Of a stretch of DNA of 38,080 nt, positions 29,723-33,148 are shown piece after piece. Made by a program: the position numbers and the translations under genes. The notes beneath the pieces are model-generated. The model saw only the letters and a list, made by a program, of their open reading frames with translations. It was not told where the DNA came from and did not search any database. Position 1 is the first letter of the stretch; each line of letters begins with the position of its first letter. Source of the DNA: Clostridiaceae bacterium (GTDB lineage: Bacteria > Bacillota > Clostridia > DSM-8532); contig JAAYTP010000022.1 in the NCBI GenBank assembly GCA_012518025.1, forward strand, positions 1 to 38,080. The letters are read 5' to 3'.

Positions 29723-32700
29723 CTAATCAGCCATGTTTAAGCCATCGAAGACATCCCATGCAGCAAGCCCGGTACCCCCGATGTACAGGTAGTCATGAAC
29801 CTCCAGCCAGCCGTTGCGGCCATCGTCTGTCTGGAACAGACACCATCTCTGGTTGTCGCTGCCTACAAAGCGGACACTTTCATTAAGGTTCAGCACAAAG
29901 GAGACTTCATTGCTGCCGGGGGATATAACAAAAGGCAGGGACTCAATTCTCAGCTTCAGGGTGCTTGCATTCCTATACCCGATTTTTTCATAAAATGCGC
30001 TGGGCGTCCCAACCAGCTTATGCTGTGAGTTGAGACGGTATTCCTTGATAAAGAACCACGTTTCAAGGACGCTTCCACGGGTTCGGGAACGTATGATGCC
30101 GTCACCCTTTACGGCATCCGTATTCCCGCATAGACCCTCCACCTTGCCCATATTGATCAGTTTTTGACCGTCATAGTAGTAGAAGGTGCTCATGAAGTTA
30201 CTGCCGGAGCCATGTTCCTCAACAACTATTTCATAATAAGGATCCGACAGGTTGACATCAACAATCTTATACCCAGTCTGTACACCGGATCCGTGGCCAT
30301 CCACCTTGCTCTGGTTTACGGTCAGTGTGTATCTTTTCCCGTCGGTGGTGAAACTGATTCTATCTGCAATACCGTCGCCATTGAGATCAAGATCCATCGA
30401 TTCCACCGGGGCTGGCATGGCGCTACCACCTGGAAGATATATATCCTGCTCCCTCACCCAACCAGCCATATCTGCTGTAAGTTTGACGTATACGAATCCG
30501 TTCTCGGCCTGCCCCGTCAGGTTCACAAAGGCATCAGTTCCGATGTCGGCCATATGCCTGGTGAAATCCGATACGGTCTCGGAACCCGGATCGGGCTTGC
30601 TGTAAACAATGCTCCTGCTCTTTAAATAAGCCTGATTGAAATAGACACCGTTAAAATCACGGGTAAAGCTGTCATTGCTGATCCAGCCCGTTATTCCAAA
30701 CTTGGTATCGGTGGTGTCGGCAATCACATAGCTCTTCTGCTCTCCCTTAACTATTATCCGGATCAGATTGCCCTTATTCAGGGATGTCTTTGCCAGCATG
30801 ACCTTGTCGGCAGTTATGATTCCGGCGGGCAGGCTGTTACGGTCATAGAAGTGTATGTTTTCGGCACGGATCCAGAATTGGTTTCGTGTATCGTAATAGT
30901 TCAGCATACCCGATACCTTCTGAGCCAAGCACCAGCCGTTAACCACCCTGTTGTTATAGATGATGACCTCGTTTTCCTTGATTTCACCAATGTCAGCATA
31001 GCTATCACCAGGGCCGCTCTTTACCTTGCAGGTTTTTGCAACAAAGGATTCCACCCGGCTTCCCGTGGCCTTATCTGTCTCATATACCTTATCTTTATCC
31101 TGTGGAGCGCTTTGAACGGGGGGGATGCTGCCTGAAGAACCGGGCGCATCAGCGTTTAAAACAGGCTCTTTATCTACAGAACGATAGATCTCAGTCACCT
31201 CGCCAGTCAGAACATTTATGTTATAGATGGACAGTTCTCCTGCCTGGGGTTCCTTTTCATTAACCATGCGAACATAGGCAATTTTTTCTTCATTGACCCA
31301 GTTTGTATGGCGGGGAGATAATGTGCTGTATCCCGGTATGTGGGGTGTGGTAACGCTGCTTTCTGAAACGATCAGGAATGAACCTTCATTATCGATCATC
31401 ACCCGGGCACCCGTTGGTGTGGAGCGGCACCAGGGCAGTTGATCCGATTTCATTTCCCTGCTGGAGTGGAAAACACTGAGCTTTCCAGTCCGCATATTCA
31501 GGGTTCCGGAATTCCCGTTCCTCATTCTGAAAACAAGATGATTGCCCTCAAGCCGGTAATCGGTGATATATGTGTCCTGCATACCAGGATTTCCGGCTTC
31601 CTGGTCTGGAGTGATGGGGGTATCCTGATCATTTCCCATGACATGCTTCATGATCACGCCGTTTAAGATATACCAGACCGTACCTGAATCAGGGTTGATA
31701 TAAAAGGGCTCGTGCTGGATGATTTCGGTTTTCCATGCGGAGTCACCCGCAAAGGCTGTCATAGCTATATCCCCTGAAAAGACACCTACACCGCCGTTAT
31801 TGGAGACATAGAGGTTTCTGACAGGAACATCTGCTTCCAACTCCTCAAATAACAGGTTGTGCATATCAAGCAGATAGATGGAACCAGCGCTGTTTCTGGT
31901 GGCATATGCTAAATAATTGCCGCTGGGGGACCAGGCATGAACCACCTGTTCCATGCTCAGAGGGGATAGCTGATAATACCCACCATCCGTTGTATTGAAA
32001 AGATATACACCATGGCCGGCGGATTCATCCCCATAAGTTACATGACTTCCGGCAATCATGAACTCTCCCGTCGGGGAAAAGCTAAATTCGGCTTCAAAAG
32101 AATCATGGGGGTTTTTAAGACCAAAGCTGCTCAGGTCAATCAACTGGTGTAACTCACCGCCCCCGTAGCGGGCTATGATATAGCTGTTCCGGATTATAAC
32201 CTGAGTTTCATTGGCATGAAGTACTTGCCAGGAAGAATCACCCAACTCATTGAGTTTTTCAACCAGATCATCACCCGACAAAAGGCCTGATACGTCTGTG
32301 CATGTAAAGGCAATACCAGTGCTTTCAGTAGGCAGGTCTACGTTGGCCGGCTCTTCTTCCTTGTCGAAGATGGTCATTATCGAACCCCAAAAGGGTTTTG
32401 AAACGTCATGGACACACAACAGGCAGATGAGAAGTATCCCCAGAGTTGCGGGAACCACAAAGAGCCATATCTTCCGTAGAAAGTTGGGGCTGGCGGCGAG
32501 TCTCCAAAAGCCGGGTCTGCGGTCGGATTCATTCCCGATCAGCCTCATGATCGAATCCACAGGCACAGTCCCGCAGTAAACCTCTCCCTTTATTCTTCTT
32601 ATGAGCTGGCCAAAAGTCACAGGGTGCCGGTTTTCTGTAGCCAGAACCTGTTCCATCAGGAATTCCCGCGCCCGAACCATTCTCATCCTGACAGAACTAA

Positions 32701-33148
32701 CTGAAAGACCAAATATCCGACCAACTTCCCCGAGTGATAGTCCGTTGTGGTAGTGCAGGATGAACATGGAGCGAACCTCGTCGTGGAGGGGGTCAAGAAA
32801 GGCATTTAAAGATTCGTCTTCCTCCGGCTCTTCTTCATGCCTGAGAAGGAAGTCGGGGATATCGGGGTGGGATACCAAAGGCTGAGGATGTATGCGCTTA
32901 TAACTTCTGACCATGCTGGCAGCCATCTTGTAGAACCAGGTGGAAAATGACCACCGGTCATTGTACCGGTACAGGCTGCGAAAAGTGTTAAGGAAAATCT
33001 CCTGTGCAAGATCCCGGGTTTGGGAAGCAGGGATTCCCATTTTTATTAAGAACCCGTATAGTCCGGGATAATATGATACTATCAGCTCTTCAAAGGCCTG
33101 GGTCTCACCCTCAAGCACTTTTTCCACAAGCAGCCTGTCACTGTTCAT
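29723..33148 (-). CDS. ECF sigma factor fused to TM helix and large extracytoplasmic beta-propeller/SH3-like region
   Basis: N-terminal sigma regions 2 and 4 (DLAQEIFLNTFRSLYRYNDRWSFSTWFYKMAASMVRSYKR; LGEVGRIFGLSVSSVRMRMVRAREFL), TM IWLFVVPATLGILLICLLCVH, propeller-like FSPTGEFMIAGSH/WSPSGNYLAYATR, SH3-like CKVKSGPGDSYADIGEI. ORF opens at 33256; ATG 33148 has aaggag 9 nt upstream. Confidence 0.85.
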   Translation of the reverse strand: MNSDRLLVEKVLEGETQAFEELIVSYYPGLYGFLIKMGIPASQTRDLAQEIFLNTFRSLYRYNDRWSFSTWFYKMAASMVRSYKRIHPQPLVSHPDIPDFLLRHEEEPEEDESLNAFLDPLHDEVRSMFILHYHNGLSLGEVGRIFGLSVSSVRMRMVRAREFLMEQVLATENRHPVTFGQLIRRIKGEVYCGTVPVDSIMRLIGNESDRRPGFWRLAASPNFLRKIWLFVVPATLGILLICLLCVHDVSKPFWGSIMTIFDKEEEPANVDLPTESTGIAFTCTDVSGLLSGDDLVEKLNELGDSSWQVLHANETQVIIRNSYIIARYGGGELHQLIDLSSFGLKNPHDSFEAEFSFSPTGEFMIAGSHVTYGDESAGHGVYLFNTTDGGYYQLSPLSMEQVVHAWSPSGNYLAYATRNSAGSIYLLDMHNLLFEELEADVPVRNLYVSNNGGVGVFSGDIAMTAFAGDSAWKTEIIQHEPFYINPDSGTVWYILNGVIMKHVMGNDQDTPITPDQEAGNPGMQDTYITDYRLEGNHLVFRMRNGNSGTLNMRTGKLSVFHSSREMKSDQLPWCRSTPTGARVMIDNEGSFLIVSESSVTTPHIPGYSTLSPRHTNWVNEEKIAYVRMVNEKEPQAGELSIYNINVLTGEVTEIYRSVDKEPVLNADAPGSSGSIPPVQSAPQDKDKVYETDKATGSRVESFVAKTCKVKSGPGDSYADIGEIKENEVIIYNNRVVNGWCLAQKVSGMLNYYDTRNQFWIRAENIHFYDRNSLPAGIITADKVMLAKTSLNKGNLIRIIVKGEQKSYVIADTTDTKFGITGWISNDSFTRDFNGVYFNQAYLKSRSIVYSKPDPGSETVSDFTRHMADIGTDAFVNLTGQAENGFVYVKLTADMAGWVREQDIYLPGGSAMPAPVESMDLDLNGDGIADRISFTTDGKRYTLTVNQSKVDGHGSGVQTGYKIVDVNLSDPYYEIVVEEHGSGSNFMSTFYYYDGQKLINMGKVEGLCGNTDAVKGDGIIRSRTRGSVLETWFFIKEYRLNSQHKLVGTPSAFYEKIGYRNASTLKLRIESLPFVISPGSNEVSFVLNLNESVRFVGSDNQRWCLFQTDDGRNGWLEVHDYLYIGGTGLAAWDVFDGLNMAD

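Follow-up and report, generated by a model that had tools for sequence, protein, structure and literature searches.

A one-piece ECF sigma factor from a thermophilic clostridial genus, with a membrane helix, a probable anti-sigma remnant and a large modular ectodomain

The window analysed here, a stretch of 38,080 nucleotides from a Clostridiaceae bacterium, encodes a 1141-aa protein in which a complete ECF sigma factor (residues 1-168) continues in the same reading frame into a transmembrane (TM) helix and a large ectodomain. It is probably an ECF sigma factor fused at the translational level to its cognate membrane anti-sigma factor, of which a cut-down domain remains, and its sigma would be held at the membrane until released by regulated proteolysis. 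Fused ECF sigma factors, including ECF52 and ECF243, are already known, and the architecture of this clostridial one is apparently undescribed.

Results

Domain layout of the fused protein

Sequence searches of the N-terminal part show that, like other ECF sigma factors, it contains regions 2 and 4 and lacks region 3. Both regions score above their Pfam cut-offs (Table 1), the NCBIfam sigma70-ECF model matches residues 18-166 (4e-20), and a profile of the sigma part matches solved ECF sigma factors, SigW and RpoE being among the best. These results bear out an earlier note, made from the sequence, which had read the first ~160 aa as a complete ECF sigma factor and had given the exact position of the ORF, naming no strand; the gene is encoded on the minus strand. 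Orthologues have the same start region, which backs the start at 33148 (MNSDRLL). A single hydrophobic segment follows, the one TM helix of the earlier note, with about 7 Arg/Lys in the ~30 residues before it and few after, a charge bias that an N-in/C-out topology would fit. The part predicted to lie outside comprises about 890 aa rather than the ~850 aa first estimated.

The repeats earlier described as propeller-like fold as a propeller in an AlphaFold2 model of residues 280-665 (pLDDT 87.3, pTM 0.87). Foldseek with this model returned 1434 matches at E<=0.001, which are propellers, but with TM-scores <0.5, so the blade count is not fixed; the PD40/WD40 models of Pfam gave no match in the fused protein. 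Among the several SH3-like stretches claimed, one passes the Pfam cut-off and a second, residues 724-747, is sub-threshold; a relative of this second module likewise gives an SH3_3 match below the cut-off. In the EF-hand-like loop, the D-x-N-x-D-G pattern is invariant in 6 sequences.

Table 1. Features of the fused gene and its surroundings (positions are those of the window)
Feature	Position	Strand	Evidence or remarks
Whole gene, one-piece ECF sigma/TM/ectodomain protein, 1141 aa	29723..33148	minus	ORF and orthologues
Sigma70 region 2, residues 22-85	32894..33085	minus	Pfam PF04542, 29.2 bits, cut-off 24, 8e-7
Sigma70 region 4, residues 120-164	32657..32791	minus	Pfam PF08281 Sigma70_r4_2, 31.7 bits, cut-off 25.7, 1.2e-7
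Linker, residues 181-222, putative anti-sigma remnant (helix-3 end and helix-4 region), no zinc ligands	32483..32608	minus	hhalign
Single TM helix, residues ~223-250, predicted N-in/C-out	32399..32482	minus	hydropathy scan, charge bias
Beta-propeller, residues 280-665	31154..32311	minus	AlphaFold2 model, Foldseek, weak profile match to WD40 domains
SH3-type module, residues 695-905	30434..31066	minus	blastp to L095 M56-type proteins
C-terminal module, residues 918-1141	29726..30397	minus	SH3_3 match; relatives in lipoproteins and an M56 sensor
EF-hand-like loop DLDLNGDGIAD, residues 919-929	about 30362-30394	minus	within the C-terminal module
SH3_3, residues 1081-1116	about 29801-29908	minus	Pfam, above gathering cut-off, 1.2e-6
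Sigma-A-like promoter of the fused gene, TTGTCT-N18-TATAAT	33322..33351	minus	conserved
Terminator-like hairpin directly 3' of the fused gene	29685..29713	minus	13 bp stem, T-rich tail
Shared-promoter site	29555-29581	minus	further sites in L113, L117, L118, L120, L121, L116, L123, L125, L106
Shared-promoter sites, sister genus	L127-L134, L157-L163, L199-L208		

The modules distal to the propeller recur on other proteins, a point overlooked by the earlier note. Residues 695-905 match two proteins of locus L095 (blastp E 9e-29 and 9e-20), both M56/BlaR1-like and encoded near a BlaI-type repressor; the first contains an M56 domain by Pfam. Relatives of residues 918-1141 are found in an M56 sensor (L094) whose gene adjoins that of a BlaI-type repressor, and in several lipoproteins. 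The presence of these modules on lipoproteins and M56 sensors would fit an extracytoplasmic, cell-wall-related sensing role. Members of the propeller family also occur elsewhere: an ORF in genome G170 (L092, 4425-5909, minus strand) combines a TM segment with the same propeller family and has no sigma or zinc finger.

Conservation of the single reading frame

The host genus is a thermophilic clostridial genus, and the fused protein is encoded in one piece in all five of its genomes, including that of the isolate Thermoclostridium caenicola DSM 19027, with concordant start, gene order and frame. Five independent genomes exclude chance or artefact as the source of the ORF and rule out the assembly chimera or frameshift that the earlier note had named as a possible refutation. 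Among 388 sampled genomes of the class, none outside the genus yielded a full-length fused protein. One further genome (G018) has a fragment of the sensor (L031) that starts immediately ahead of the TM segment, where its contig ends.

The protein is under purifying selection, with dN/dS values of 0.12-0.30 in the sigma part, 0.36-0.43 in the linker, which is thus the fastest-evolving region, and 0.10-0.21 in the outside parts. Given these values, neither half is decaying. Two other grounds for refutation, an absence of sigma domain matches and orthologues that are always split, likewise fell away: the sigma part is matched by Pfam, NCBIfam and profile searches and is under purifying selection, and split forms occur only in distant relatives.

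Two-gene relatives and origin of the fusion

These distant relatives belong to another clostridial family, in which three genomes (G114, G344 and G402) carry an overlapping gene pair encoding an ECF sigma factor and a ZAS anti-sigma factor with a TM segment and the same propeller. In G114, the stand-alone sigma, the best sigma match of the search outside the genus, has as its neighbour a protein of 530 aa with similarity to the linker, TM and propeller of the fused protein. In the two-gene anti-sigma, zf-HC2 (residues 15-36; above the cut-off in G114, weak in G344) precedes the TM, and the propeller comes after it. A tree of 68 ECF sigma factors pairs the three two-gene sigmas with the five fused ones as sister clades (98/95). 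Both are nested within a larger set with separate anti-sigmas; those checked have large outside domains of other kinds, GerMN and GH5 among them.

In the same tree the fused sigmas stand on a long branch, and their Pfam scores are below those of the two-gene relatives. Both observations would suit a protein whose sigma domain is a relic and whose sole remaining role is that of a surface sensor or adhesin bound to the membrane; since the dN/dS of the sigma part is low and regions 2 and 4 are intact in five species, we regard this as highly improbable.

Comparison of profile A10 with the two-gene anti-sigmas by hhalign maps its columns 16-97 to anti-sigma residues 45-126 (probability 84, E 7.7e-6). 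The linker of the fused protein thus aligns to this stretch and omits the zinc finger at 15-36, and the C-terminal part of the protein is homologous to the membrane anti-sigma from residue 45-50 onward. No zf-HC2 match was found in the fused protein by Pfam, nor the HxxxCxxC motif and helices 1-2 of ZAS proteins. This alignment indicates that the zinc finger and first helices have been lost and that the helix-3/helix-4 region and TM have been kept, anti-sigma helices in the linker being numbered by position. A full-length AlphaFold model of low confidence (pLDDT 44) has helices at 176-187 and 197-207. Since its two-gene relatives carry the sister sigma clade, we read the protein as a sigma/anti-sigma fusion lacking the zinc finger; that the extension is a truncated anti-sigma had gone unnoticed in the earlier note.

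Other ECF-containing ORFs and pairs in the data set have different layouts. An ORF of ~467 aa in G001 (L026, 562-1959, minus strand) has a sigma and a C-terminal extension with no TM and no Pfam domain after the sigma, and in a 526-aa ORF of G023 (L297, 1677-3254) a sigma-like N-terminus continues into a long soluble extension; neither has a TM, and both were therefore dropped as proteins of the same kind. In L090, L091 and L088 (family f54), the gene after an ECF sigma gene encodes a TM protein whose outside domain is of the GH5 cellulase type (assigned by Pfam in L088 and L090); these TM proteins resemble biomass-sensing anti-sigmas.

Gene neighbourhood and promoters

No anti-sigma gene adjoins the fused gene, as previously noted: its neighbours are an alpha-2-macroglobulin-like (A2M) gene downstream and a divergent radical-SAM gene upstream. 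The pair at 3831-4918, cited earlier as a conventional contrast, does contain an ECF sigma factor, but the zf-HC2 match of its partner is weak and sub-threshold. The fused gene is preceded by a sigma-A-like promoter, and no ECF-type motif (AAC..CGTC) was found upstream of it. A terminator-like hairpin, similar to sequence in two other species, comes immediately after the fused gene, so that the A2M gene probably forms a unit of its own. It lies directly 3' of the fused gene in 5/5 species and has its own conserved ECF-type promoter.

The motif AACC-N15/16-CGTCTAA occurs upstream of A2M, serpin and BsuPI genes across the genus. The genome of the window has exactly three sites: one at the A2M gene, one at a BsuPI/SLH gene, and one at the end of a contig, where the sequence matches the serpin promoter of G002, the closest relative; a backward control of this genome gave none. 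More broadly, the ECF-type promoter AAC[CT]-N15/16-CGTC[TA] is common to the genes for A2M, a serpin lipoprotein and an SLH-BsuPI protein in two genera, and these genes form a candidate anti-protease regulon.

The constant position of A2M beside the fused gene and the motif shared by the A2M, serpin and BsuPI genes invite the reading that these genes are the main job of the fused sigma, which would act as a protease sensor running an anti-protease regulon. However, the sister genus g2 has the same promoters at A2M, serpin and BsuPI genes with no detectable fused sigma, and an ECF sigma common to both genera (G000:C102) has a near-identical promoter of its own, TGAACC-N15/16-CGTCAAAT. For these two reasons we do not credit the regulon to the fused sigma, have dropped the idea that it is the sole owner, and consider a protease-sensing main role unlikely. 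A C102-type ECF sigma is the likely regulator of these promoters, and the fused sigma may share control with another sigma.

The C102 sigma (L017, 1399-3067) and its orthologues are conserved ECF sigma factors with a partner protein of ~330-400 aa that has no evident zinc finger and, in the one case checked, no Pfam match. This type of sigma looks autoregulated across both genera. A separate ECF-like motif is conserved in g2 just after spoVAE-like genes (L240-L248, L251), upstream of a gene whose product resembles the DUF4015 protein encoded at 18019-19368 of the window; the motif is absent upstream of the window copy. An autoregulated sigma beside this g2 site was considered and dropped, as the site precedes a putative glycosyl-hydrolase-like gene rather than one for a sigma.

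Discussion

Proposed mechanism

In the mechanism that we propose, the protein's own TM helix would anchor the sigma at the membrane, and the remaining anti-sigma helix-4 segment would probably cover sigma-2, so that inhibition would come from tether and helix 4 together. In anti-sigma domains, helix 4 accounts for most of the contacts predicted with sigma-2, and ~44% of ASDIs are without zinc (PMC7406223); in the fused protein the region of helices 1-2 is missing as well. The linker, as the least conserved part, also fits a mere spacer. The ectodomain, through its propeller, SH3-type and EF-hand-like modules, may read a signal at the cell wall, upon which a site-1 cleavage outside, followed by a site-2 (RseP-type) cleavage within the TM helix, would free the N-terminal sigma to direct RNA polymerase to its targets. 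Such two-step release is expected from homology with the two-gene systems and from the precedent of IutY, a single polypeptide from which Prc and RseP release the sigma (PMC5411451). By this analogy, release of a pro-sigma by proteolysis upon an envelope signal is the most likely mode of action.

Membrane-bound transcription factors of the ToxR/CadC type offer a different model, in which the sigma would be active while tethered and a change in ectodomain conformation or clustering would recruit RNA polymerase at the membrane with no proteolysis. Two observations speak for it: the inhibitory domain has lost its zinc finger and first helices, which leaves nothing proven to hold the sigma off, and the linker evolves fast. 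Yet the related two-gene systems retain the full ZAS domain, entry of an ECF sigma into core polymerase would presumably be harder from a tether, and the one-piece sigma that has been studied, IutY, needs RseP (PMC5411451). We therefore judge activity in the tethered state improbable.

Within the proteolytic scheme, a more specific proposal, which we put forward tentatively and hold somewhat short of an even chance, is that the sigma is silenced in cis by the tether and a single anti-sigma helix. The zinc-finger bundle would then have become dispensable after fusion, one intramembrane cut would suffice to yield an active sigma, no anti-sigma fragment having to be degraded afterwards, and the sensor would have been drawn from cell-wall modules shared with BlaR1-type receptors.

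Membrane-fused ECFs are a small set, which the clostridial protein enlarges by an architecture that is apparently undescribed. The two-gene sigma/anti-sigma pair and the one-piece fusion show the two sides of a single evolutionary step, and because both forms have the same TM and propeller, comparing them makes the minimum required to hold an ECF sigma inactive directly testable. Sensor modules also prove to be common to sigma-factor and BlaR1-type signalling.

Comparison with known systems

That the fusion principle itself is not new, as the earlier note had said, is clear from ECF48, ECF52, ECF53 and IutY, in which sigma, TM and anti-sigma share one polypeptide, and from the WD40-like extensions of ECF57 (PMC8999054). 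The suggestion that the domain combination might be undescribed stands in so far as no description was found in the literature searched, which did not cover the 2021 ECF classification; an earlier cataloguing as an ECF group is possible.

The closest systems are the two-gene pairs of G114, G344 and G402, with their sister sigma clade and the same TM and propeller; they differ in comprising two proteins, in having a full ZAS zinc finger and in lacking the C-terminal SH3/EF-hand modules. ECF52 (SCO4117, Streptomyces) likewise joins sigma, TM and an outside domain in one polypeptide, with proteolytic release proposed. It differs in retaining its zinc finger (PMC5826349), classed as pfam13490, in having a proline-rich region and a carbohydrate-binding module, and in being reported only in Actinobacteria; Pfam finds neither a pfam13490 finger between sigma and TM nor an outside carbohydrate-binding module in the fused protein. 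ECF57 (for example in Singulisphaera acidiphila), compared by description only, has WD40-like repeats in a C-terminal extension of an ECF sigma, but its proposed mode is protein interaction, linked to two cysteines across sigma-2/sigma-4.

IutY (ECF243, Pseudomonas putida) resembles the fused protein in combining a sigma with a membrane anti-sigma, and as of 2022 it was the only membrane-fused ECF with proteolytic activation worked out by experiment (PMC8999054). It differs in serving iron cell-surface signalling with an outer-membrane receptor, in its periplasmic domain and in its Gram-negative host. On the sensor side, M56 sensors of the BlaR1/MecR1 type carry the same SH3-type or EF-hand/SH3_3 outside modules, but use an M56 protease and a BlaI-type repressor for signalling in place of a sigma factor.
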